From a bacterium (GTDB lineage: Bacteria; Gemmatimonadota; Glassbacteria; GWA2-58-10): a stretch of DNA of 35,001 nucleotides. The stretch lies in the NCBI GenBank assembly GCA_021372515.1, contig JAJFUG010000204.1:1-35001 (forward strand), read 5' to 3'. The first letter of the stretch is position 1; every line of letters begins with the position of its first letter. The notes beneath the pieces were generated by a model. The model searched no databases. It had not been told where the DNA came from and saw only the letters and a program-made list of their open reading frames with translations. Positions 2,896-16,942 of this stretch are shown here, in pieces. The translations under genes and the position numbers were made by a program.

Positions 2896-3173
2896 CTATG
2901 ATGGCAGGTGGCCTGAGACCCCAGATCGTGATCATCCACTGAGTGTGAGGGGCTGACTATAGGGAGAGTGCAGTCGGCCCGTTTTACGTTCCGGCCTGGC
3001 CGCTCTCAGGACGATTCAGGTGAACAATTCCTGCCGCCGGGGTACGAAGACCCGGGAACCCGGATCGTTCGTCACAAAGCCTCTGATTGAATACGGTTTA
3101 CCGGCATCGGTCGGCCCCGCACCCTGATAAAAGATAACCCTCGACAGCAGTCAAGCCGCCTATGGCATTTTGC
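2896..3173. other. Gene-free strip of decayed DNA
   Basis: I see no supportable gene, RNA or repeat in this stretch between the hypothetical remnant and the excisionase-like fragment. Confidence 0.5.
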
Positions 3174-3335
3174 ATGAACGAGCTGTATCTTCCCACCACT
3201 CGCCAGAGGGCATCCGTCCTGCTTTCCAGTCAACATATAGTCAACTGCTGGTGCCGGGAAAACCTGATCGATCATTACGAGGCTCCGGGCATTGGCAAAA
3301 GAAGAACTGTCAGGCTGATCAGCATCGGGGATTAA
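3174..3335 (+). pseudogene. Excisionase/MerR-like HTH fragment (older element)
   Basis: A 53-codon frame starts at ATG 3174 and ends at TAA 3333-3335. Residues 3-14 (ELYLPTTRQRAS) and the block IVNCWCRENLIDHYEAPG match the layout of HTH_17/excisionase domains: start strand, helix-turn-helix, then a W-C-R-E-G-like recognition helix followed by the H-x-x-x-P-G wing. The wing that normally reads as a G-G-H-R motif is altered (GIGKRR), and the protein stops right after it, so it looks decayed. It is in the same frame as, and directly before, the broken recombinase. Such proteins bend DNA to favour excision. It is not the excisionase of the present island, which has its own at 6083. Confidence 0.45.
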
Positions 3336-3757
3336 GTGGGTTTCTGGAGAGGACAAAAGTATCGTCCCGGTCCAAAAGAGGTTCCGGATCAAGCCACGAA
3401 TCATCTGACTGTTTCAGCGGTGGGTGTGGTCAAAAGAGCTATGGAGTCGAGGTCCAAGGATTATGTATTCATAAACCCGAATACTGGCTCCCGCTACACA
3501 CCATCCGGAAGACTTTTGACCGGGCGGTCCTGAGGGTGGGTCTTACAACGATAGACGGCCGGAAGCTCTGCTTCCACGACCTGCGGAGGATCTTCTCCAG
3601 CTGGGCGATTGAGAACGGCGCCGGGATGGAGACTGTCTTCCACTGTCCGGGTCACAGATAGATCACCACGACGCAGCGGTACATTACCCTGGATCACAGA
3701 TCGATCGGGAAAAAGCTCGAGGTAATGCCACAGCTCAGGGTGGTGGTGTCACAATAA
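3336..3757 (+). pseudogene. Tyrosine recombinase (integrase) C-terminal domain, broken
   Basis: Two frames together give a degraded phage-type integrase catalytic domain. The first frame (3336 to about 3500) reads DYVFINPNTGSRYT, the usual strand before the catalytic core end. A one-base frameshift near 3500 leads to IRKTFDRAVLRVGL and then FHDLRR (H-x-L-R box) and CPGHR. A TAG at 3659-3661 interrupts the gene right after GHR, and the frame then resumes with ITTTQRYITL, carrying the nucleophile-position tyrosine, up to TAA at 3755-3757. The N-terminal half and the first catalytic arginine box are missing. It is probably the relic of an earlier element that used the same tRNA-Val locus, whose 3' copy begins 124 bp away. 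Confidence 0.8.
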
Positions 3758-3880: not shown

Positions 3881-3929
3881 AATATGGTGGGCGCTACTGG
3901 GTTCGAACCAGTGACCTCCTGCTTGTAAG
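3881..3929. repeat. Left attachment-site direct repeat (tRNA-Val 3' half)
   Basis: These 49 bp are identical to 16861-16909. They contain the leftward tRNA-Val sequence from the anticodon loop through the variable loop, T arm, acceptor strand and encoded CCA, plus four flanking bases. Beyond 3929 the similarity to the tRNA stops, so this copy is only a half tRNA. This is what a tyrosine recombinase leaves behind when an element integrates in the 3' half of a tRNA gene. Confidence 0.92.
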
Positions 3930-4072: not shown

Positions 4073-4094
4073 CTATCGCCTTAAGGGGGAATCA

Positions 4095-5252
4095 ATGAAA
4101 CGGATCAAGACCAATTATCCCGGTGTTTATTACCGTCTGGTTGAACGGACCGGAGGCAGCGGAAAAGAAAAGGTTTTTTACATTCGTTTCAAACAAAAAA
4201 GCATAGTCGTAGAGGAGAAAGTTGGCCGACAATTCGTTGATGATATGACGGCTGCTAAAGCGGCTCGGCTTAGGGGCGAACGGATCGAGGGAAAGCGCCT
4301 CTCCCGCAAAGAGACTGAAGCGGTCAAGCGGGCTGAGAAAGAGGCAGAGAAAGCGCGTCCTACAATCTCCCGGCTATGGGAGGCGTACAAGGCGGGCAAG
4401 CCTGAAAGCAAATCTCTTCGCAGTGATGAATTGATGTTCCTGAAACATATTGCTCCTATGCTGGGTGAAAAAACACCGGAAGAACTGGTGCCCCTGGACC
4501 TGGACCGGCTACGGATCAAACTTCAAAAGAATTATTCGAATCAGACGATTGCCTACATTCTCAAGTTGGTCAAGCGGCTGGTGAACTTCGGCCACAGGAA
4601 ACAGCTATGCGGCCCCCTCTCCATTGAAGTGGAAATACCAAAGGTAAACAATATCAAGACTGAAGACCTAACACCGGAGCAATTAAAGAAGCTTGTCGAA
4701 CTATTGGACTCCGACAAAAACGTAACTGTTGCCCGACTGATGAAGATAGCTCTCTTTACCGGCATGAGGCGCGGAGAACTTTTCCGGTTAAAGTGGGGAG
4801 ATGTGAATTTCCAGCGGGACAATATCACGCTGCACGATCCGAAAGGCGGCCAGGATCAAACCATTCCTCTGAATTCAGCGGCGCGTGAACTCCTTGAACT
4901 TCACAAGACCGGTAGGGGTGAATCCGAATATGTCTTCCCAGGACGCGGTGGGAACATGCGGGTCGATATAAAGAAGGAAGCGAACCGGATCAAGAAAGCC
5001 GCAGGACTGCCGGATAGTTTCCGGGCACTACACGGTCTGAGGCATGTTTATGCTTCCATGATGGCTTCCTCTGGTAAAGTGGATATGTACACTCTGCAAA
5101 AGCTGCTGACTCATAAGTCACCGCAAATGACGCAACGATATGCTCACCTTCGTGATGAAGCTCTACGGAATGCCGCTAATCTGGCCGGAGAGTTGGTAGA
5201 GCAGGCGGTGAAATCTCTCGATAAAAAGCACGCGGAGAAGAAAGGGGCGTGA
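4095..5252 (+). CDS. int: Tyrosine recombinase / integrase of the island
   Basis: This 385-residue protein catalyses site-specific integration and excision at the tRNA-Val repeat. The catalytic set is complete: R225 in TGMRRGELFRLKW, H313-R316 in HGLRH, H340 in LLTHKS and the nucleophile Y349 in TQRYAHL. An N-terminal arm-binding region and a core-binding SAM-like domain (about residues 95-185) precede it. I start it at ATG 4095 because a GGGGG Shine-Dalgarno lies at 4085-4089; the frame is open up to 4002, but that upstream part looks like untranslated AT-rich sequence. The gene lies 166 bp inside the left repeat, the usual place. It ends one base before the next gene, so the two are likely co-transcribed. 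Confidence 0.93.
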   Translation: MKRIKTNYPGVYYRLVERTGGSGKEKVFYIRFKQKSIVVEEKVGRQFVDDMTAAKAARLRGERIEGKRLSRKETEAVKRAEKEAEKARPTISRLWEAYKAGKPESKSLRSDELMFLKHIAPMLGEKTPEELVPLDLDRLRIKLQKNYSNQTIAYILKLVKRLVNFGHRKQLCGPLSIEVEIPKVNNIKTEDLTPEQLKKLVELLDSDKNVTVARLMKIALFTGMRRGELFRLKWGDVNFQRDNITLHDPKGGQDQTIPLNSAARELLELHKTGRGESEYVFPGRGGNMRVDIKKEANRIKKAAGLPDSFRALHGLRHVYASMMASSGKVDMYTLQKLLTHKSPQMTQRYAHLRDEALRNAANLAGELVEQAVKSLDKKHAEKKGA

Positions 5253-5253
5253 T

Positions 5254-5958
5254 ATGGAACATTCCCTGCGAGAAGCCATTTTGTGTGAAATTGAGGCAAA
5301 TGTTGCACAAAAAAGAGAAAAGTGGAGGGGTTGGAAAAATATTCCAAAAGAGAGGTTGGAATATTTCTTTCAAATGCTGGATTTAGAGGTGGGATTTGCT
5401 GGAATCTGGACAAGCTGGTATCAAATGAACGATAGAAAGCGGTATGACCATTACGGCGATTTAATGCTCCGAGCATTAAATCAGGCAATCCAGTACCATG
5501 AAGCGCGTCTTGCGATTGAATATGCCGATGAACTTAGAATGGATGAAGATGCAATAAAAAAAGGTGCTGAACCAAGTATTAGTCAGGAATGGCCTGATTT
5601 ACAGAGCTATATCGACTTCGCTAATAGCATAAATGGACCCCTTTCTTTAAGTGGTCTGTACCGGCTCCAAGAAAATTTGACCAAACGATTGAATCCTACC
5701 CAACCTCCAGCGCATGAGCAACTGGTTTTCAATATTGCGAAACTCTTCATGCTGGTACTTGAAAAAAAACCTACTCAATACCAGGACGGACCGTTTTATA
5801 AAATTGTATCCTTAGCGCTGGGAGTATGCAATCGCCCCTCACAAAATCCTCGGCGGCTAATCGAGTGGGTACTCAAAAACTATGATGTTGAAAATACACC
5901 ATATAGGAGAGAATCCGAAGTTAAAGAAGAGCTTTCCCGCTTATCCGACCAACAATGA
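5254..5958 (+). CDS. Hypothetical protein co-transcribed with the integrase
   Basis: I do not recognise this 234-residue protein. It is soluble: no signal peptide or membrane helix is visible, and the sequence is rich in aromatic and charged residues (REKWRGWKN, WTSWYQMNDRKRYDHYGD). It looks largely alpha-helical. The ATG at 5254 lies one base after the integrase stop and has AAAGGGG at 5241-5247 as ribosome binding site, so it is real and translated from the integrase message. Its AT-richer codon use matches the integrase and differs from the chromosome. A role in control of integration or in defence is possible, but nothing in the sequence proves it. Confidence 0.75.
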   Translation: MEHSLREAILCEIEANVAQKREKWRGWKNIPKERLEYFFQMLDLEVGFAGIWTSWYQMNDRKRYDHYGDLMLRALNQAIQYHEARLAIEYADELRMDEDAIKKGAEPSISQEWPDLQSYIDFANSINGPLSLSGLYRLQENLTKRLNPTQPPAHEQLVFNIAKLFMLVLEKKPTQYQDGPFYKIVSLALGVCNRPSQNPRRLIEWVLKNYDVENTPYRRESEVKEELSRLSDQQ

Positions 5959-6082: not shown

Positions 6083-6277
6083 ATGTCGAACATACCGCAG
6101 CTTCTTACCGAACAGGAAGTTTCCCGCATGATCCGGCGGGCCGTCCAGACCTTGCGCAATGACCGTAATCTCTGCCGGGGCATTCCGTATTGCCGGATCG
6201 GGCGGAGCGTGCGCTACAAGCTGAGTGATGTACAGGAATTCGTGGAGGCGCGGCGCATTGAACCGGAAGGGCGCTGA
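6083..6277 (+). CDS. AlpA/excisionase-family HTH DNA-binding protein
   Basis: This 64-residue protein has the layout of the AlpA/HTH_17 (MerR-like) family: LLTEQEVSRMIRRAVQTLRN as helix-turn-helix, a PYCRIGRSVRYKLSDV wing, and a short final helix (EFVEARRI). The R-x-G-R-x-V-R-Y wing is characteristic. Family members act as excisionases or activators of the integrase in phages, satellites and integrative islands. Start ATG 6083 follows AGGGGA at 6071-6076. It lies 124 bp after the unknown gene in the same direction and is the likely partner of the recombinase at 4095. Confidence 0.85.
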   Translation: MSNIPQLLTEQEVSRMIRRAVQTLRNDRNLCRGIPYCRIGRSVRYKLSDVQEFVEARRIEPEGR

Positions 6278-6506: not shown

Positions 6507-7124
6507 ATGGAACAACCGGAGGCAAAGCCCAATAAACGCCGGGGCTGGTTTGTGATGCTACGGAATGAACTTTGGCAATCAGAAGCTTGGCTCAGTCTGC
6601 CAAGCACCGCAATGAATGTTTATCTCCTCATATTGTCTGATGCTGTCCTTGCCCGAAAGCATGACAAGAAGAATAACCCCAACGGCCGAGACTGCAAAAG
6701 GATAGAAAATTCCAATGCCCTGAAAATGACCTACACCCAGGCAGAAAAAAAGCTGCACCGGAGCAGCCGCGCGATTGCCGATGCAATCCAGATGCTCGTG
6801 GACAAGGGCTTGATTGACCGGACCCGTGAGGGTGCCGGATTGTACAAGGTCGAAACGTTGTACGGCCTGTCTGAGCGCTGGAGGCGATACGGCAAGCCTG
6901 ACTTCCAGGCTGCACCTGAGCGCCCTGTCCGAAGCAGTGCGGGCAGCGAGGGGCTGAGGCGGTTTAACCAGAAGCGGACAGACACAAGAAAACGTCAACA
7001 GCAAAGCCAAAAGACAAAGCAGCAGACACTACAAAACGACAGAATAGGCAACGGCAAAAGTAGCAAAGTAAATACTGCTGAGATGGTAGAATCTAAAAGG
7101 GCTGAAGCCTCCTTCAGTGGCTGA
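6507..7124 (+). CDS. Winged-helix, replication-initiator-like protein
   Basis: This is a 205-residue cytoplasmic protein. Residues about 10-125 begin GWFVMLRNELWQSEAW and continue through MTYTQAEKKLHRSSRAIADA and LVDKGLIDRTREG, a winged-helix arrangement seen in plasmid and element Rep proteins and in helix-turn-helix proteins next to AlpA genes. The last 70 residues are basic and Q/K/R/S-rich, probably disordered. ATG 6507 has GAGGAG at 6493-6498 as ribosome binding site. Four hairpin repeats begin inside its 3' end and continue downstream, which supports an origin-binding role. The family call is by pattern only; a transcription regulator is the alternative. Confidence 0.6.
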   Translation: MEQPEAKPNKRRGWFVMLRNELWQSEAWLSLPSTAMNVYLLILSDAVLARKHDKKNNPNGRDCKRIENSNALKMTYTQAEKKLHRSSRAIADAIQMLVDKGLIDRTREGAGLYKVETLYGLSERWRRYGKPDFQAAPERPVRSSAGSEGLRRFNQKRTDTRKRQQQSQKTKQQTLQNDRIGNGKSSKVNTAEMVESKRAEASFSG

Positions 7125-7279
7125 GGCCGAAAGCATTAAAACCGGTTAATATCCTCCATACAAGGCCGTTACACCATAATTGGACAAGAAGGCCACTGAA
7201 TGTTTCTTCAGTGGCTAAAAGTGAAAAAGGATTTTGTCACTGAAGCTTCCTTCAGTTGAGCCGCTGAAGCTTCCTTCAG
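7102..7279. repeat. Array of four short hairpin repeats (possible origin or protein-binding sites)
   Basis: Four related inverted repeats share the core CTGAAG-N4-CTTCAG: 7102-7117 (inside the end of the upstream gene), 7192-7215 (9-bp stem, core partly changed), 7239-7256 (7-bp stem) and 7264-7279. The third and fourth share a 17-bp direct repeat (7241-7257 and 7265-7281) with a 24-bp period. They lie immediately downstream of a Rep-like gene, where iterons are often found. None is followed by a long T-tract in the right direction, so plain terminators are unlikely. Confidence 0.7.
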
Positions 7280-7297
7280 TTAAAAAACGGAGAGCGA

Positions 7298-7768
7298 TTA
7301 CTTGGACACATCCATGATGAAGGAGCTATCATAATACAACTGGAAGGGCTTTTTAAATCCCACTTCGCGGTCGAAATACAAACCGAGATGAATCCTTGCA
7401 CCCGGCATAATGGATTTATAAAGAACACCGGTTCTTATTACATTGCTCTCCGACATTTCAAAGGCTGCCTCTGACTGCTTGGGCTTGTCATTCGTGTCCG
7501 CCCAGGGTACGCTCGATTGATTTCCCTCCGAGTCGATACCGCTGAACCGCAAAGGATTGATAACCACAAGGCTGTCACCGCTATTCTCAACCATCAACCG
7601 AAGCCACAGCTTCCCCTCATATATCCCCGTCCAATGATTGATTTTTTCTACCCGGTACTTTAAGCTTCCCATAGTAGCTGTGTTCCAATCCGGCGGGCGT
7701 TTTTTTGCCCAAGCTAAATCTGTTGTGAACATAAAGCCCAGCATCATCACAAGTATTATCTTATTCAC
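7298..7768 (-). CDS. Secreted protein of unknown function
   Basis: This 156-residue protein starts with a GTG at 7768, preceded by a strong AAGGAGG ribosome binding site. Residues 1-21 form a classical Sec signal peptide (hydrophobic core MMLGFMFTTDL, cleavage after AWA). The mature part looks beta-rich, with alternating strands such as GKLWLRLMVENSGDSLVVI, a pattern of small immunoglobulin-like extracellular domains. It has no cysteine, so it is not a lipoprotein. It is the only leftward gene inside the island and lies between the hairpin array and the defence block. Function unknown. Confidence 0.72.
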   Translation of the reverse strand: MNKIILVMMLGFMFTTDLAWAKKRPPDWNTATMGSLKYRVEKINHWTGIYEGKLWLRLMVENSGDSLVVINPLRFSGIDSEGNQSSVPWADTNDKPKQSEAAFEMSESNVIRTGVLYKSIMPGARIHLGLYFDREVGFKKPFQLYYDSSFIMDVSK

Positions 7769-8509: not shown

Positions 8510-8656
8510 GAATAAGCAATTTCTGGAAATTGACTCTCCTTGTGGCAAGCCGCGGATTAAATGCGCCTATGCCAGAACTCAATGTGGAACAGTTGTCACC
8601 GGCACAAGCCCGGCTCTAAAACAGATGATTTCAAGCTCCAACCGATAGAGGCTCCC

Positions 8657-11600
8657 ATGCCCCAAGTTGTAATCGAAAACCCAATCCTCAACTCTCCCTT
8701 CGAGGAACCGAACCGCCATTTCCGCTTCAACGATGAAGGGATTACGGATGAGATCGTTGAAGAACGGCGGACCAGCTCGTATTTCGTCCCTATCGCCAAG
8801 TCCAAGAAAAAACTCAGTGAGCAAAAAGCTTTTGTCGGGACTGAATGGACAGAAGACCGCATCGAGGAAAACAAACTCGTCAACGACATCCGCCGCCGGG
8901 TGACAATATGGCGTAAGGGTGGCTATATCGGTGTCACGCCCACCACAAGACGCCTGATAGACTACTGGATTGATCCGAACCGCGAGAAAAAGCTTTTCTT
9001 CTGCCAGAATGAAGCCCTTCAGACTGCGATTTACATAACGGAAGTCGCTGGAAAGTACGGCGATGCCTGGATTGAGAACGCACTCCGCAAAGCCAATGAC
9101 TCCTCGAATCCCGGCCTGCCGCGCATGGCCTTCAAGATGGCCACCGGCTCCGGCAAAACCGTTGTCATGGCTATGCTCATCGCCTGGCACATGCTCAACA
9201 AGCGCGCCAACCCACAGGATGCCCGTTTCTCGGATGCTTTTCTGATCGTGACACCCGGCATCACGATACGGGATCGGTTGCGCGTGCTGCTACCTAATGA
9301 CCCTGATAACTACTACCGGCTGAGAGACATAGTACCGGTTCAATACATGGATCAGCTCGGACAGGCCAAGATAATCATCACCAATTTTCATTCTTTCCAA
9401 CTCCGTGAAAAAATGGCCGCCGGGAAAATCACTAAATCGATACTGTCCGGCGGAGAGCAAAGCCCGTTCACCGAGACGCCCGACCAGATGGTGCGCCGGG
9501 TCTGCCGGGAGTTGAGTAACAAGAAAAACATCATCGTCCTGAACGACGAAGCCCACCATTGCTACCGACGCAGGCCGGATGCAGAGGATGAACAACTGAA
9601 GGGTGATGAAAAAGCGGAGGCCAAAGCCCGCGAGGAAGAAGCCCGCGTCTGGATTTCAGGCGTCGAAGCCGTAAAAGCCAAAATAGGTGTCAAGGTTATC
9701 TACGATCTCTCCGCCACGCCCTTCTTTTTGCGTGGCTCAGGCTATCCTGAGGGCACGCTCTTCCCGTGGGTCGTATCGGACTTCTCCCTGATCGATGCTA
9801 TCGAGGCCGGTATTGTAAAGGTGCCACGAGTGCCGGTGGCCGATAATTCCATGACCGGCGATCAGCCCACCTACCGCGACCTGTGGCTGCGTATCCGTGA
9901 AGACCTACCCAGAAAAGGCCGTAAGACTGATAAGATCAGCGGCGAGCCAAAACTCCCAAGTGAGCTTGAGGGAGCGTTACACAGTCTCTACAGCAATTAC
10001 GAGAAGCATTACGAACAGTGGGAAAAGAACTCGGATGCCCGCGCACGCGGTATCACTCCGCCCGTCTTTATCGTGGTCTGTAACAACACCAATGTTTCAA
10101 AGATGGTCTTTGATTTTATCTCCGGGTGGGAAAAAGAGATCAGCGGCAAAACCATCGTGCAGGCCGGGAAACTGGCGATCTTTCGGAATGACGACGAGCG
10201 TGGCGGCTGGTTGCAGCGTCCGAACACCATCCTGGTGGACAGCCAGCAGCTTGAATCCGGTGAGGTGATGAGCGCCGACTTCAAGAAAATCGCCGCCCGC
10301 GAGATCGACGAATTCAAGGCTGAATACCGTATCCGCTTCCCTGGTCGTGACGCCGAGAGCCTGACTGATGAAGACCTCTTGCGCGAGGTGATGAACACGG
10401 TCGGCAAGGCCGGAAAGCTGGGCGAGCATATAAAGTGCGTGGTCAGCGTTTCCATGCTCACCGAGGGCTGGGACGCCAACACCGTGACCCATATCCTCGG
10501 CGTGCGCGCGTTCGGCACTCAACTGCTCTGCGAACAGGTGGTGGGCCGTGCCTTGCGCCGCATGAGCTACGCCGTCAATGAGCAAGGCCGGTTCAAAACT
10601 GAGTACGCCGAAGTCTATGGCGTGCCGTTCTCTTTCATTCCGTGCAGCGGCTCGAACAACGACCCTAAGCCCGGACCTCTCACAACCCGCGTGCGCGCCC
10701 TTGAAAGCCGGATTGCCTGCGAGATCACTTTCCCCCGGCTGGCCGGTTATCGCTATGATGTGTCCGGCGAGAGGTTGTCGGCTGTCTTTACTGAAGAATC
10801 ACGTATGGCTCTATCGACCCAGGATATACCTACGAAGACCGAGAATGCACCAATCGTGGGAGAAACCGCCATACACACCCTGGATGATTTAAGGCGCTGC
10901 CGGATAAACGAAGTGGCTTTTTCCCTGGCGAAACTGACTCTTGAAAAATACTTCCGTGACGACAACGGCAATGACAAGCCCTGGCTCTTCCCGCAGCTAC
11001 TCGGCATAACCAAGAGCTGGCTGGCCGAGTGCGTCACGCTCAAGGACAATACCTTCCCTCAACTGCTCCTTCTCATACAATTCGCCCATGATGCCGCAGA
11101 CCGCATTTACAAGGCGATTGTCGCTTCCACTGACGGCACGGCCACGCTCAAGCCGATCATGCAGCCTTTCGATCAGATCGGCACAACACGGTATGTGGAT
11201 TTCGACACCGGACGGCCGGTCTACCCGACCCGTGAGGATAAATGCCATATCTCCCATGTGGTGGCTGATACCGAGTCATGGGAACAGAAAATGGCCGAAG
11301 CTCTCGAAGATATGACCGAGGTCATCCGCTACGTAAAAAATCATAACCTCGGCTTCTTTGTCCCGTACACGCTGAACGGCGAGGAAAAGAACTATATCCC
11401 TGATTTCATCGCCTGCATCGATGACGGACACGGCCCGGATGACCTGCTCAATCTGATTGCGGAAGTGACCGGCGAAAAACGCAAGGATAAGGTGGCGAAG
11501 GTCGATACGGCGCGCTCGCTCTGGATACCGGCGGTCAACAACCACGGCGGGTTCGGGCGCTGGGCTTTTATCGAGGTGTCCGATCCGTGGGACGCACAGA

Positions 11601-11665
11601 ATACTATCCGGGGATTTATCAAAAAGCATTCAGTGGAACAGACAGAGGGAACCGTCAATGGCTAA
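8657..11665 (+). CDS. res: Type III-like restriction enzyme Res subunit (SF2 helicase-nuclease)
   Basis: This 1002-residue protein is the DNA-translocating and cleaving subunit of the restriction-modification pair. It shows Walker A MATGSGKT (161-168), DEAH box (297-300), SAT (352-354), SMLTEGWDANT (about 600) and arginine-finger motif QVVGRALRR (627-635), all of superfamily 2. Near the C-terminus PDF (915-917) followed by EVTGEK (936-941) resembles a PD-(D/E)xK nuclease core in which the usual lysine is threonine and a lysine follows two residues later. I choose ATG 8657 (MPQVVIENP) with AGAGG six bases upstream over an upstream ATG at 8561. The family appears to be the one named after BPTD_3080. 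It overlaps mod by 8 bp. Confidence 0.92.
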   Translation: MPQVVIENPILNSPFEEPNRHFRFNDEGITDEIVEERRTSSYFVPIAKSKKKLSEQKAFVGTEWTEDRIEENKLVNDIRRRVTIWRKGGYIGVTPTTRRLIDYWIDPNREKKLFFCQNEALQTAIYITEVAGKYGDAWIENALRKANDSSNPGLPRMAFKMATGSGKTVVMAMLIAWHMLNKRANPQDARFSDAFLIVTPGITIRDRLRVLLPNDPDNYYRLRDIVPVQYMDQLGQAKIIITNFHSFQLREKMAAGKITKSILSGGEQSPFTETPDQMVRRVCRELSNKKNIIVLNDEAHHCYRRRPDAEDEQLKGDEKAEAKAREEEARVWISGVEAVKAKIGVKVIYDLSATPFFLRGSGYPEGTLFPWVVSDFSLIDAIEAGIVKVPRVPVADNSMTGDQPTYRDLWLRIREDLPRKGRKTDKISGEPKLPSELEGALHSLYSNYEKHYEQWEKNSDARARGITPPVFIVVCNNTNVSKMVFDFISGWEKEISGKTIVQAGKLAIFRNDDERGGWLQRPNTILVDSQQLESGEVMSADFKKIAAREIDEFKAEYRIRFPGRDAESLTDEDLLREVMNTVGKAGKLGEHIKCVVSVSMLTEGWDANTVTHILGVRAFGTQLLCEQVVGRALRRMSYAVNEQGRFKTEYAEVYGVPFSFIPCSGSNNDPKPGPLTTRVRALESRIACEITFPRLAGYRYDVSGERLSAVFTEESRMALSTQDIPTKTENAPIVGETAIHTLDDLRRCRINEVAFSLAKLTLEKYFRDDNGNDKPWLFPQLLGITKSWLAECVTLKDNTFPQLLLLIQFAHDAADRIYKAIVASTDGTATLKPIMQPFDQIGTTRYVDFDTGRPVYPTREDKCHISHVVADTESWEQKMAEALEDMTEVIRYVKNHNLGFFVPYTLNGEEKNYIPDFIACIDDGHGPDDLLNLIAEVTGEKRKDKVAKVDTARSLWIPAVNNHGGFGRWAFIEVSDPWDAQNTIRGFIKKHSVEQTEGTVNG

Positions 11666-14267
11666 GAAAAGAAGCTCAACCCCAATCGAAGCCATAAGCC
11701 ATAAGGACCGGCGCGTCAACATCCCGACCGAGGAGCTGCGCGATTTCGTGGCCGAAGAGGAAAAGCGGCCTCAAACCATGCTCTACCCGCGCGATCCCTC
11801 CCTTGACCCGCAGCTTGTCTGGAAAGGCAAGGATGAGCAGGACCGCGAAGACCTGGCCGTGCCGGTGGTGCCGATCTACATTCAGGAGAAGATCAAACCC
11901 CAAGCGCTCATCAACGCTCTGCCGCGCATTGAGCAGCCGGGAGGGAGTCAGATCGACTTGTTTTCCGATTTCAACGGCGGCCCGGCGGACTTTGAGCAGA
12001 AGGTGGAGTTCTACCAGCACGAGCAGAACTGGACCAACCGCCTGATACTCGGCGACTCCCTGCTGGTTATGACCTCCCTGGCCGAGAAGGAAGGTCTCAA
12101 GGGCAAGGTGCAGACCATCTACCTTGACCCGCCCTACGGCATCAAGTTTGGCTCCAACTGGCAGGTCAGCACACGCAAGCGGGATGTTGGAGATAAAGCT
12201 GAAGATGCTACCCGACAGCCCGAACAGGTGAGAGCCTTCCGTGACACCTGGAAGCTTGGCATCAACTCTTTTCTTGCTTATCTCCGTGATCGTCTTGTTG
12301 TGGCCCGTGAGCTCCTTACAGAAACTGGAAGTATCTTTGTTCAAATCGGTGACGAAAATGTACATCTGGTGCGATGCGTGTTGGATGAGGTTTTAGGTTC
12401 TGAAAATTTCATCGCAATAATACGATTTCGCAAGAAGACAATGCCTCTTGGCGGATTATTTTTAGAACGTATGGGAGATTTTATTGTTTGGTATTCAAAA
12501 AATAAAGATGTAGCAAGGTCAAAATATCGTCAGCTTTTAATTAGACAAAATTACGAGGAAGATTTCCATTGGAATAACTTTGAGTTGTCAGACGGCAGTC
12601 GTATTAAACTGACGAAAGCTCAAATAGAAAAAGGCCAAGAAGTGCCTCAAAATGCAAAAAGATTTCGCCTTGTATCTCTCTGGCCAGCATCCTTCAATTC
12701 AAATGCAGTTTTTCCTGTCCCGTTCAGAGGTAAAGAATGGTGGCCAGCAGAAGGACAATGCTGGCCAACATCTCCAGAGGGTATGAATAAACTAATCTGG
12801 GCTAACCAGATTGAACCTGAAGGCAATTATCTTCGCTTGGTTTTATATTTAGAAGGTGCTGAATATTCGAAACTTACAACTGATTGGGGAGATACTATTG
12901 GGGCCCGTGACCAGAAATACGTCGTTGAAACCTCTCCAAAAGTAATCGAGCGCTGTATTCTGATGACAACTGATCCAGGCGATCTGGTATTGGACCCTAC
13001 TTGCGGCAGCGGCACCACGGCCTATGTCGCCGAGCAGTGGGGCCGCCGCTGGATTACCTGCGACACCAGCCGGGTGGCCCTGGCCCTGGCCCGCACCCGC
13101 CTTATGGCTGCCAAGTATACTTACTACCTGCTTGCCGACTCGCCCGAAGGCATAGAGAAAGAAAAAGAACTAACCGGTAAAACACCTCCCGAATACAAGA
13201 CCAGCAACGATATCCGAAGAGGTTTTATCTATGAACGTGTACTGAGTGCTGCGCTTGAATCCATCACCAATAATCCTGAAATTCGAGAAGGACTGACGAG
13301 AGAACAGATCGATGCTGCCGTTCTTCGCAATACAAATACAGTAGAACTCTACGATAAACCTTACCCGGACAACAAGCGCGTCCGGGTTTGCGGGCCGTTC
13401 TCCGTGGAAAGCCTCTCCCCGCACCGTGTGCTCTCCACTGCGGACGAGAACCAGGACGGCACTGTGACTGAGCAGGAAGCCCACAAGCAGCAGGATTTCG
13501 TCAGTATGATCCTGGACAACCTCAAGAAAGCCGGAGTGCAGAACACCCGCAAGGATGAGCGGCTCACCTTTGACCGTCTCGATCCCTTTGCCGGAAAATG
13601 GATTCACGCCACTGGCGATTATACCGATGCAGACGGCAAGACCCGTCGTGTGGCTGTCTCCATCGGCCCGGAACACGGCACTGTCGGCCCGCAACAGGTC
13701 AAGGAAGCGGCAAAGGAGGCGGTCCAGGGTGTCGGCTTCGACCTTCTGATTGTCTGCGGCTTTGCCTTTGACCCGCATGTCTCCGAGGAAGCCAAACGCT
13801 ACGGCTCTTTGACTGTGCTCCCGGCCAAGATGAACCCCGACCTGGCTATGGGCGATGAACTGCTCAAGAAGACAGGCGCGGGCAACCTGTTCATGGTCTT
13901 CGGCGAGCCGGACGTGGAGATCACCCGGCAGAAAGACGGCCAGCTTGTGGTGGAGATCAAGGGCGTGGATGTTTACGACCCGACCACCGGACAGGTTCGC
14001 AGTTCCTCCACGGATGACATTGCCTGCTGGTTCATCGACACCGAGTACAACGGCGAGAGTTTCTTTGTCCGCCATGCCTATTTCACCGGTGCCGAGGAGC
14101 CTTACGACAAGCTCAAGCGCGCCCTGCGAGCCGAGATTGACGAGGCGGCCTGGAACAGCCTTTACAGCACTGTAAGCCGCCCGTTCGCCAAGCCGGAGTC
14201 GGGCAAGATCGCCGTCAAGGTCATAAACCATTACGGGGATGAGGTGTTGAAGGTTTTTGAGGTGTGA
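11658..14267 (+). CDS. mod: Type III-like Mod subunit: beta-class DNA adenine-N6 methyltransferase
   Basis: This 869-residue enzyme methylates adenine in the target site and guides Res. Motif IV DPPYG is at 157-161 and the SAM-binding motif DPTCGSGTT at 446-454; this order is the beta class. About 280 residues between them hold the target-recognition region, and bases about 12360-12985 there are clearly more AT-rich than the rest of the gene. The C-terminal 400 residues form a long extra domain (for example EKPYDKL-like end region AEEPYDKLKRALRAEIDEA) expected to bind Res. The start overlaps the end of res by 8 bp, so the two are translationally coupled; the order res-mod is reversed from classical Type III operons. 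Confidence 0.92.
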   Translation: MAKKRSSTPIEAISHKDRRVNIPTEELRDFVAEEEKRPQTMLYPRDPSLDPQLVWKGKDEQDREDLAVPVVPIYIQEKIKPQALINALPRIEQPGGSQIDLFSDFNGGPADFEQKVEFYQHEQNWTNRLILGDSLLVMTSLAEKEGLKGKVQTIYLDPPYGIKFGSNWQVSTRKRDVGDKAEDATRQPEQVRAFRDTWKLGINSFLAYLRDRLVVARELLTETGSIFVQIGDENVHLVRCVLDEVLGSENFIAIIRFRKKTMPLGGLFLERMGDFIVWYSKNKDVARSKYRQLLIRQNYEEDFHWNNFELSDGSRIKLTKAQIEKGQEVPQNAKRFRLVSLWPASFNSNAVFPVPFRGKEWWPAEGQCWPTSPEGMNKLIWANQIEPEGNYLRLVLYLEGAEYSKLTTDWGDTIGARDQKYVVETSPKVIERCILMTTDPGDLVLDPTCGSGTTAYVAEQWGRRWITCDTSRVALALARTRLMAAKYTYYLLADSPEGIEKEKELTGKTPPEYKTSNDIRRGFIYERVLSAALESITNNPEIREGLTREQIDAAVLRNTNTVELYDKPYPDNKRVRVCGPFSVESLSPHRVLSTADENQDGTVTEQEAHKQQDFVSMILDNLKKAGVQNTRKDERLTFDRLDPFAGKWIHATGDYTDADGKTRRVAVSIGPEHGTVGPQQVKEAAKEAVQGVGFDLLIVCGFAFDPHVSEEAKRYGSLTVLPAKMNPDLAMGDELLKKTGAGNLFMVFGEPDVEITRQKDGQLVVEIKGVDVYDPTTGQVRSSSTDDIACWFIDTEYNGESFFVRHAYFTGAEEPYDKLKRALRAEIDEAAWNSLYSTVSRPFAKPESGKIAVKVINHYGDEVLKVFEV

Positions 14268-14335: not shown

Positions 14336-14354
14336 GTATTGACAAGAGGTGGCA

Positions 14355-14705
14355 TTGGATATATACTTCAAGTCAAAGAAAATGCAGAGGATTTGTTCTG
14401 ACAGTCGAGAAATGCAAAAAGCCTATGGAGTAGAGATGGTGAAGAAACTCCAGCAACGGCTTATGGAATTAAAAGCGGCAACAAATCTGGCAGAGATTTC
14501 CCCCCTTCCACCAGCACGCATTCATCCTTATCAAGGACACAGGGCCGGACAGTTTTCTGTTGATCTCGTCCACCCGTATCGTCTCATTTTTGTCCCTGGG
14601 GAAAATCCAGTCCCACGGAAAAAAGACGGCGGAATAGACTTGACCGGAATAACGTCTATTGAGGTGTTGGAAATATACGACCCTCACAAAAAAGGTGCAA
14701 AATGA
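14355..14705 (+). CDS. higB: HigB/RelE-family mRNA interferase toxin
   Basis: This 116-residue protein has the HigB-type RelE fold pattern: MDIYFKSKKMQRICSDSREM at the start, a helix with YGVEMVKKLQQRL, the segment PARIHPYQGHRAGQFSVDL and the strand YRLIFVPG, and a final beta strand IEVLEIYDPH. Members cleave mRNA on the ribosome. I prefer the TTG at 14355, since AGAGG at 14345-14349 is then correctly spaced; a GTG at 14349 is the alternative and would overlap that site. The toxin precedes its antitoxin, the HigBA order, and overlaps it by 4 bp (ATGA). Confidence 0.85.
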   Translation: MDIYFKSKKMQRICSDSREMQKAYGVEMVKKLQQRLMELKAATNLAEISPLPPARIHPYQGHRAGQFSVDLVHPYRLIFVPGENPVPRKKDGGIDLTGITSIEVLEIYDPHKKGAK

Positions 14706-15790
14706 CCGAAGAGAAAAGGTATCCGTTTGAGCCGGACTACGCTGTCGCGCCCGGTGAGACCCTTCGGGAAGTGATTGAATCGCTGGGCATGACTCAAAAA
14801 GACCTTGCGACCCGCACCGGCCTGACTGTGCAGTCGATCAACCGGATTTTCAAAGGCGATCAGCCGATCACTCACGAGACCGCAAACAGCCTGGAGCTGG
14901 TGACAGGTGTCCCGGCGCGTTTCTGGAACAATTTGGAAGCCCAATACCGTGAGCAATTGACCAAACTCGAAGAAAGAAAACGGCTGGAAACAGAGGGCAT
15001 CGAGTGGCTGAATTCAATCCCGACAAGTGAATTGATCGAGAGGGGATTTATTGAGCCACAGACGGATGATGTAGGGTTGCTGCGAGAGACACTAAAGTTC
15101 TACGGTGTCGTGAGCGTGGAGGCATGGAAAGATGTTTGGGAAAAACCTGCCATTGCAGCCCGCCGTTCCGCTTGTTTCGAATCTCAGCCCGGACCGACTT
15201 CGGCTTGGTTACGTATTGGGGAACTCAAAGCACATGCAATCGAATGTGACCCATTTGATAAAGCGTCCTTCAAAGAGGCTTTGAAAGCAATCCGCTCTCT
15301 AACACGAGAGTCCCCGGAAGTGTTTATACCGGAAATGAAAAGGCTTTGTGCTGAATCGGGTGTTGCGGTCGTGCCTGTTCCTGAGATGAAAAAAGCACCG
15401 TTCAATGGCGCGACCAAATGGCTTTCTGCAAATAAGGCAATGATTCTACTCACCTTACGAGGCAAAGGAGAAGATAAGTTTTGGTTCTCATTTTTCCATG
15501 AAGCCGGGCATGTCTTGAACGACAATAAGAAAAACCTCTACATTGCAGACAACTCGGAAGCGCCGGAGGAGCAAGAAGCGGATCGTTTTGCAGCAGAATT
15601 TCTTATTCCGGGCAGATACGATGATACAATCCGTAGCCTCCGATCAGAAGCAAGTTTTATCGAAGTAGCGGATGAATTGAACATTGCGCCTGGTATTGTG
15701 GTTGGCCGGTATCAACATCTTACAAATAACTGGAAGTATCTTAGAAAACTGATCCGATCTTTTCGCTGGAATGTTCAACCGTCGAGGTAA
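14702..15790 (+). CDS. higA: HigA-type antitoxin fused to an ImmA/IrrE-like metallopeptidase domain
   Basis: This 362-residue protein joins a Xre helix-turn-helix (about residues 18-75; LGMTQKDLATRTGLTVQSIN, TGVPARFWNNLE, the HigA signature) to a C-terminal domain with the zinc motif HEAGH at 266-270 and the distal acidic helix EEQEADRFAAEF near 290. The HTH should neutralise HigB and repress the operon. The metallopeptidase-like domain, with all three metal ligands apparently kept, may cleave a repressor or the antitoxin itself under stress; that is inferred from ImmA/IrrE relatives. It is much longer than the usual antitoxin of about 100 residues. It sits directly after the restriction-modification genes. 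Confidence 0.88.
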   Translation: MTEEKRYPFEPDYAVAPGETLREVIESLGMTQKDLATRTGLTVQSINRIFKGDQPITHETANSLELVTGVPARFWNNLEAQYREQLTKLEERKRLETEGIEWLNSIPTSELIERGFIEPQTDDVGLLRETLKFYGVVSVEAWKDVWEKPAIAARRSACFESQPGPTSAWLRIGELKAHAIECDPFDKASFKEALKAIRSLTRESPEVFIPEMKRLCAESGVAVVPVPEMKKAPFNGATKWLSANKAMILLTLRGKGEDKFWFSFFHEAGHVLNDNKKNLYIADNSEAPEEQEADRFAAEFLIPGRYDDTIRSLRSEASFIEVADELNIAPGIVVGRYQHLTNNWKYLRKLIRSFRWNVQPSR

Positions 15791-15888
15791 TGGTAAGTAA
15801 TGCGCTTAGTATGAGGACAAGTCGCACCTCCTGCCAACCCATTTATACTTCCACCATCCGTTCAACGAGTGGGCGAGAAGCGTTAAGC

Positions 15889-16121
15889 AACACCGAGTAC
15901 AACGGTGATAGTTTCTTCGTGCGCGCCACGCCTATTTCACCGGGGCCGAGGAGCCTTACGACAAGCTCAAGCGGGCGCTGCGGGCCGAAATCGACGAGGC
16001 GGCCTGGAACAGCCTCTACAGCACGGTCAGCCGTCCGTTCGCCAAACCCGAGACCGGCAAGATCGCCGTCAAGGTCATCAATCACTACGGCGATGAAGTG
16101 TTGAAGGTGTTTGAGGTATAA
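15889..16121 (+). pseudogene. Frameshifted second copy of the mod 3' end
   Basis: These 233 bases align with 14037-14267, the last 77 codons of mod, and end with an equivalent stop (TAA instead of TGA). By eye about 28 positions differ, nearly all at third codon positions, plus a 2-base insertion near 15923 that breaks the frame. The pattern means the copy diverged while under protein-level selection, so it came from another mod allele and is not a fresh local duplication. It has no start, so no product is expected. Confidence 0.88.
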
Positions 16122-16161: not shown

Positions 16162-16203
16162 GGGGCGGGGTCAAATCTCTGGGGCTTGCAATCGTAGACC
16201 GTG
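16162..16203. repeat. 42-bp direct repeat, copy 1
   Basis: This copy matches 16637-16678 with three mismatches in 42. The core is GGGGTCAAATCTCTGG followed by CGTAGACCGTG. The motif GGGGTCAAA also appears in part near 16247. Such GGGGTCA-type units are often seen as genome-wide intergenic repeats. This one could be the trace of a small non-autonomous element of 516 bp (16162-16678). Confidence 0.75.
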
Positions 16204-16636
16204 TGCGTAGCAAAATTCTTACCTGTGCAAAATGAAGGAGGGGGGTCAAACGCCATTTGCGCCCCCAGAATCCCGCTATTCCCAACGCCCCGCCACTTGA
16301 CCGCTGGTCAAAAACCCCGCTTTTCGGGCCTGTTGTCGCTGCTCTGCAACCCGTCAGTCAGGCCCGCGCCGTTCAACCGGGCAGCCTTGAGCTGGTTCAA
16401 CGTGTGGACACCATTAAGAGTATGCCGCGCCATGTCTGGCCCCGCTGTTGTGGACAGGTTCCCCGTCCCTGCTCGGCCGGGCCTGGTTTTTACCGGCCAC
16501 ATCTTATGGTCGGGAGAGAACCACGCCCATGATCCAGTCAACAACCAGAGAACAGAGCGATCCTTGAAAGAGACCTCACGGGCAGCAGAATCAGGTTCAT
16601 ACGAATAATTGAGATAAGTTTCGCACCTGGAGCGTT

Positions 16637-16678
16637 GGGGCGGGGTCAAATCTCTGGAGCTTTCAACCGTAGACCGTG
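16637..16678. repeat. 42-bp direct repeat, copy 2
   Basis: Partner of 16162-16203, in the same orientation and 475 bp downstream, with three mismatches. Confidence 0.75.
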
Positions 16679-16781
16679 CGGGAAGTCGTTTTATTCCACG
16701 TGCGAATTAAAATTTCTGAATTTTCAATTGATGGACGGGAAGGATTCTATAGAACCCCGGAAGGCTGATTATACCTCCGCG

Positions 16782-16860: not shown

Positions 16861-16909
16861 AATATGGTGGGCGCTACTGGGTTCGAACCAGTGACCTCCT
16901 GCTTGTAAG
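16861..16909. repeat. Right attachment-site direct repeat inside tRNA-Val
   Basis: Identical over 49 bp to 3881-3929. It spans four bases downstream of CCA and the last 45 nt of the tRNA gene up to its anticodon loop. The crossover therefore lies within or beyond the anticodon loop, a common site for tyrosine recombinases. Confidence 0.92.
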
Positions 16910-16942
16910 GCAGGCGCTCTCGACCAGCTGAGCTAAGCACCC
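16865..16942 (-). tRNA. tRNA-Val (anticodon TAC), CCA encoded
   Basis: Read leftward from 16942 the gene folds as a standard cloverleaf of 75 nt plus encoded CCA. It has a 7-bp acceptor stem (one G-U pair), a 4-bp D stem, a 5-bp anticodon stem CCTGC/GCAGG with loop CTTACAA, and a 5-bp T stem with TTCGAAC loop. The anticodon TAC (complement of 16905-16907) reads GTA and GTG valine codons. It begins only 8 bp after the stop of the small membrane-protein gene, so it may be co-transcribed with that gene. Its 3' half is the island attachment site. Confidence 0.97.

Follow-up and report, generated by a model that had tools for sequence, protein, structure and literature searches.

A candidate four-iteron replication origin at the 3' end of a small winged-helix protein gene in an integrated island

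The stretch of DNA analysed here (the window, 35,001 nucleotides) contains an island in which four CTGAAG..CTTCAG palindromes are found at the 3' end of a gene called rep. The palindromes are very probably docking sites of the neighbouring protein, Rep. The preferred reading of the sequence is that they serve as iterons in a Rep-dependent replication origin belonging to an integrated, excisable island (probability about 0.87), and that the island probably copies itself once excised. The original prediction proposed either an origin or a packaging or control site. The origin is favoured over packaging, because the repeats are present beside most homologues of rep, their geometry is conserved and their sequence is specific to each Rep.

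The island and its four repeats

The island is 13.0 kb long and is inserted at tRNA-Val. It is bordered by two exact 49-bp direct repeats, which copy the 3' end of tRNA-Val(TAC) (Table 1). From left to right, it encodes an integrase, a 234-aa protein, an AlpA-like protein and Rep, followed by the repeats, a minus-strand ORF, the endonuclease and methyltransferase, and the HigB-like/HTH-M78 pair. The minus-strand ORF has no match in Pfam, PHROG or PADLOC.

Table 1. Coordinates of the island, its genes and the putative origin (positions in the window).
Feature	Position	Strand	Remarks
attL, left island end	3881..3929	.	49-bp exact copy of tRNA-Val 3' end; repeats 16861-16909, 12,980 bp apart
Tyrosine recombinase (integrase)	4089..5252	+	Pfam Phage_integrase 6.5e-30; PHROG integrase 1.4e-53
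234-aa protein	5254..5958	+	30% identical to L011 8949-9659; no Pfam or PHROG family
AlpA/excisionase-like HTH_17 protein	6083..6277	+	Pfam HTH_17 1.2e-6; PHROG excisionase and transcriptional regulator
Rep, small winged-helix replication initiator (candidate)	6507..7124	+	basic low-complexity tail; PHROG DnaD-like helicase loader 1.6e-8
Iteron 1	7101..7118	.	core 7102-7117, centre 7109.5; inside rep coding sequence; CTGAAGCCTCCTTCAG
Long spacer between iterons 1 and 2	7119..7194	.	AT 54%
Iteron 2	7195..7212	.	core 7196-7211, centre 7203.5; CTGAATGTTTCTTCAG
Iteron 3	7239..7256	.	core 7240-7255, centre 7247.5; CTGAAGCTTCCTTCAG
Iteron 4	7263..7280	.	core 7264-7279, centre 7271.5; CTGAAGCTTCCTTCAG
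Minus-strand ORF	7298..7768	-	signal-peptide-like start; bounds origin region
Cargo restriction endonuclease, BPTD_3080 family	8561-11665	+	NCBIfam NF046055, 1222 bits
Cargo type III-like DNA methyltransferase	11658-14267	+	Pfam N6_N4_Mtase 5.9e-31; PADLOC MTase_III
HigB-like toxin with HTH plus M78 peptidase partner	14349-15790		partner: PADLOC PD-Lambda-2_B, 2.1e-29
attR	16861..16909	.	inside tRNA-Val(TAC) 16942..16865, minus strand

Traces of other events are seen around the island ends. The 3' end of the methyltransferase gene (14030-14263) is repeated about 1.85 kb downstream, beside attR (15882-16117, 84-89% identical), which suggests that another mod gene was once inserted or deleted. 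A 75-nt direct repeat is also present near attR (16162-16236 and 16637-16711, 475 bp apart, 76% identical). Outside the island, just left of attL, a fragment of another phage-type integrase (3170-3661) may be left over from a previous integration into the same site.

The four copies predicted within 7102-7281 are present. The first begins inside the end of the winged-helix gene, as had been noticed, and the predicted 24-bp period is that of iterons 3 and 4; the centre-to-centre distances are 94, 44 and 24 bp. The arms are 6-9 bp long. The description of the repeats as CTGAAG inverted repeats stands for the four palindromes as such and needs correction for iteron 2, whose arms are CTGAA/TTCAG (extending to 9 bp at 7192-7215). 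With up to three mismatches, the palindrome pattern has 9 matches in the window versus 2.66 expected (0 of 100 shuffles). Perfect or one-mismatch versions are clustered only at 7102-7279 in the whole 4.87-Mb genome, the other matches being scattered singletons. The repeats are therefore not dispersed, which rules out a REP-like repeat.

The long spacer is richer in AT than the body of rep (44%), and the AT content of the corresponding spacer in relatives is 49-69%. No DnaA box was found in the origin region, and a DnaA-dependent origin is thus unsupported.

Rep is a 205-aa protein with no Pfam domain above the cut-off. It is possibly related to the DnaD-like helicase loaders: it matches phrog_186 (Table 1), and so does the Rep of a second island of the same genome, L011 (1.4e-3). 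An O-like PHROG match is weak for the window Rep (0.21) and clearer for L011 Rep (8.2e-5), which also matches a replication initiation protein PHROG. As in an origin, a repeated sequence (four copies) lies beside the gene of a putative initiator with PHROG replication matches. Window Rep has no primase or helicase domain. Its AlphaFold model, based on a two-row alignment, has a pLDDT of 52 and is too poor for a fold search.

Rep homologues and the spacing of their repeats

The second related island, L011 (contig C165, 7543-17188), is 9.6 kb long and lies at tRNA-Leu(TAA), between tRNA-Leu-derived 63-nt repeats 9.6 kb apart. It has the same gene order as the window island (integrase, 237-aa homologue of the 234-aa protein, HTH protein, Rep), and the two Reps are 30% identical. 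Directly 3' of L011 Rep are three ACAAGTACACATGGCAGGCACTTGA-like copies and one half-degenerate copy. Their sequence is unrelated to CTGAAG; their centre distances are 95, 46 and 24 bp, versus 94, 44 and 24 bp in the window. Two such islands can apparently coexist in one genome.

When Rep was used as a query, nothing was found in viral contigs, genome contigs, phages or plasmids, and there was no autonomously replicating relative among plasmid or phage records. Relatives were reached through an integrase search, which led to locus L036 of Desulforhopalus singaporensis, where Rep is followed by ACCCTCATAACCGGACCC repeats 24 bp apart, and then through a Rep profile search of that phylum. A three-Rep profile matched in 18 of the 395 genomes searched, including the one that holds L036 (G404). 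The Rep family alignment has 20 members. The homologues are nearly all in Desulfobacterota; with a 20-row profile, a single weak homologue was detected in the same family as the window. In the window's phylum, the matches of a two-row profile were Crp-type regulators on reading, and HTH proteins from Manganitrophus plasmids were set aside as too weak. Where the neighbourhood of a homologue was read, an integrase and a tRNA gene mostly lie within a few kb.

Repeats were counted as copies of a 14-mer, with up to 2 mismatches, over a constant interval of 450 bp spanning the rep stop codon. Four copies are present in 11 loci, a number reached in none of 100 shuffles. Several other loci have three copies, and the weakest homologues none above chance. 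The weaker homologues L062, L066 and L071 (the last being that of genome G005) have no clear array in the rep 3' region. The repeats are thus found beside most homologues of the 6507 gene, in line with the original prediction.

Seventeen loci, including the window, share a common four-iteron geometry in either orientation, while their iteron sequences differ. The distances fall into the classes 24 or 34 bp, 34 or 43-46 bp, and 91-95 or 102-108 bp. With centres placed on the symmetry axis and distances listed from short to long, they are, for the three arrays in mirror order, 24/44/94 in the window, 24/46/95 in L011 and 25/35/95 in L051. The other loci have 24/34/102 (L050), 24/34/104 (L067), 24/43/91 (L052), 24/44/105 (L053), 24/45/94 (L054), 34/44/93 (L055 and L068), 34/45/93 (L056 and L057), 34/46/95 (L063), 23/44/106 (L058), 24/45/105 (L059 and L060) and 23/45/108 (L061); L053 and L061 each include a degenerate site whose position was chosen with reference to the geometry, the fourth L060 site was copied from its near-twin L059, and the remaining sites come from a similarity ranking blind to spacing.

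With a loose tolerance, the unsupervised ranking alone finds 14 of 23 rep 3' regions with this geometry. Among 468 control windows taken on the same contigs it finds 4, each with a weak repeat score. Four sites placed at random meet the strict classes with a probability of 2e-4. The array spans about 150-180 bp and is kept across many islands. The alternative distances differ by about 10-11 bp, that is, one helical turn, which suggests that the sites are phased on the helix. The array is reversed relative to rep in the window, L011 and L051, and it therefore appears to work in either orientation.

In three loci the repeats are present with spacings that differ from the common geometry. The layout is 45/43/22 in L064, 33/33/33 in tandem inside the coding sequence in L069, and 24 plus an inverted copy in L036. 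These are possibly variants of the geometry.

The original prediction described the iterons as hairpins. This part is not retained, since the same spacing is kept in several relatives whose repeats are direct or poorly palindromic: in L051, L059 and L061, as few as 3-5 of 12 positions are symmetric. The evidence favours protein sites in double-stranded DNA over hairpins.

Covariation of the iterons with Rep

Two pairs of loci, each from one genome, show concerted changes. L050 and L067 are near-identical over rep and ori, and the same two positions are changed in each of the four iterons (ACGAAAACGTAACCATA in L050, ACGTAAACGTACCCATA in L067). The base changes in rep cluster at the recognition helix, where ITQPRL becomes ITHPRL (Gln to His), and a few further residues differ between the two proteins. 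Similarly, all iterons and the recognition helix of Rep have changed between L055 and L068 (RQNFRDAV with GTATCG..CGATAC versus RREFRNAI with GTGACA..GTCAC). Identity between L055 and L068 rises to 100% just beyond the last iteron, which indicates that the rep-ori module ends there. This boundary resembles the module exchange described in PLEs (PMC8263062).

Over 16 loci, iteron similarity correlates with the identity of the recognition helix when the rest of Rep is corrected for (partial rank correlation 0.50, permutation p 0.002). Since related sequences are not independent, the matched pairs carry more weight than this p value. Together, the covariation over the 16 loci and the changes in the two pairs support the specificity of the iterons for their own Rep.

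Proposed mechanism, alternatives and known systems

In the proposed origin, Rep, probably as a dimer, would bind each palindromic iteron via its recognition helix. The four occupied iterons, at 24, 44 and 94 bp from each other, would form a single nucleoprotein complex. The neighbouring DNA would then open, the long spacer (7119-7194) being the candidate opening or helicase-loading region. A replicative helicase, supplied by the host or by a helper, would be loaded, and the excised circle would replicate. Against this reading stand the moderate AT content of the long spacer, the lack of a DnaA box, the failure to find an autonomously replicating relative in plasmid or phage records, and the homologues with no clear array (L062, L066, L071) or with other spacings (L036, L064, L069).

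The array could instead be only an autoregulatory or copy-control operator, through which a DNA-binding protein that is no initiator controls rep or its neighbours. The winged-helix part of window Rep has weak matches to MarR-like and other regulator domains, and the array lies between converging genes, with a weak promoter-like match at 7303-7332. This is however unlikely, since the sites are at the 3' end of the gene and not upstream, the PHROG matches are replication proteins, and the four-site geometry and its span are kept in many islands. Partition sites, too, typically have iterated palindromes beside the gene of the protein that binds them, and the winged-helix protein could segregate the excised element from a centromere-like (partition or incompatibility) site. 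No ParA-like ATPase was recognised among the island proteins and the match of Rep is to replication families, which makes partition even less probable than an operator.

The two remaining alternatives are the least probable. RNA hairpins after rep could act as a terminator, attenuator or mRNA stabiliser. Indeed, the single-strand folding of 7095-7290 is stronger than that of shuffles (z -4.15), and iteron 2 scores weakly as terminator-like on the minus strand. Such folding is nevertheless a trivial consequence of the palindromes, terminator-like matches are hardly in excess (3 versus 2.3 expected), and hairpins need neither the conserved spacing nor its persistence in L051, L059 and L061, where repeats are poorly palindromic or direct. 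The array could also serve a phage satellite in packaging (as a cos/pac-like site) or in the control of excision, and an integrated island with an AlpA-like gene and defence cargo does resemble satellites. This reading agrees poorly with the covariation of the iterons with Rep and with the position of the att sites, 3.2 and 9.6 kb away; no terminase, capsid, other packaging gene or phage-interference gene was recognised among the island proteins tested.

If the replication origin is accepted, an unannotated repeat becomes a testable origin for integrated elements of one family, whose bacteria are poorly studied, and a candidate compact replicon for hosts in which genetic tools are scarce. It is also somewhat probable, with less confidence than for the origin itself, that these proteins form an undescribed family of small winged-helix initiators with a fixed, uneven four-site origin, whose distances step by about one helical turn and whose sites are replaced freely together with the recognition helix. 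If so, this would be an origin architecture defined by its spacing, as well as a natural code for DNA recognition, and rep-ori modules would be swapped, which would avoid incompatibility between co-resident islands. The natural matched pairs (L050/L067, L055/L068 and window/L011), in which the initiator specificity and the four sites have changed while the geometry is kept, allow two questions to be addressed: which residues determine the specificity of the initiator, and why the spacing does not vary.

The origin of phage lambda has four imperfect inverted-repeat iterons of about 19 bp, bound by the small initiator O (PMC7466680). The likeness lies in the four inverted-repeat iterons, located in or beside the initiator gene (PMC7466680). 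However, the lambda iterons lie midway along O and adjoin a distinct AT-rich tract, whereas those of the window are at or after the 3' end of rep, unevenly spaced (24/44/94); only iteron 1 is inside rep, and the AT content of the spacer is 54%. Window Rep is also smaller than O, with no detectable sequence relation beyond the weak O-like and DnaD-like PHROG matches.

In PICIs, the ori is immediately 3' of rep (PMC6092414). The window element resembles them as an integrated island with an AlpA-like gene, a putative ori immediately 3' of rep and iterons flanking a spacer (PMC6092414). The PICI module consists of a primase homologue and an initiator, sometimes fused (Pri-Rep); the window island has no such module and encodes a 205-aa winged-helix protein instead. 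In PLEs, which are satellites of Vibrio cholerae, the DNA-binding domain of the RepA initiator and the semi-palindromic iterons of the ori covary and are exchanged as a module, as seems to be the case here (PMC8263062, PMC7145576). PLEs have three iterons of about 30 bp, their initiator is of the RepA_N type (PF06970) and their recombinase is a serine recombinase, whereas the window island has a tyrosine recombinase, and RepA_N has no match in window Rep at E up to 1.

In iteron plasmids with Rep_3/RepA-type initiators, replication is started by iteron-bound Rep, as in the Rep-iteron origin proposed here (PMC4980987). In contrast to these plasmids, the putative origin of the window has no DnaA box, a Pfam search found no Rep_3-type domain in window Rep, and the sites are palindromic and unevenly spaced, not tandem direct repeats.

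No paper on this Rep family or its spacing was found in searches of open-licence papers. Since, in addition, the defining features of PICIs and PLEs are absent, the origin appears to be a new variant. The best reading is that it would work like the origins of lambda O, PICIs or PLEs while belonging to none of these systems.
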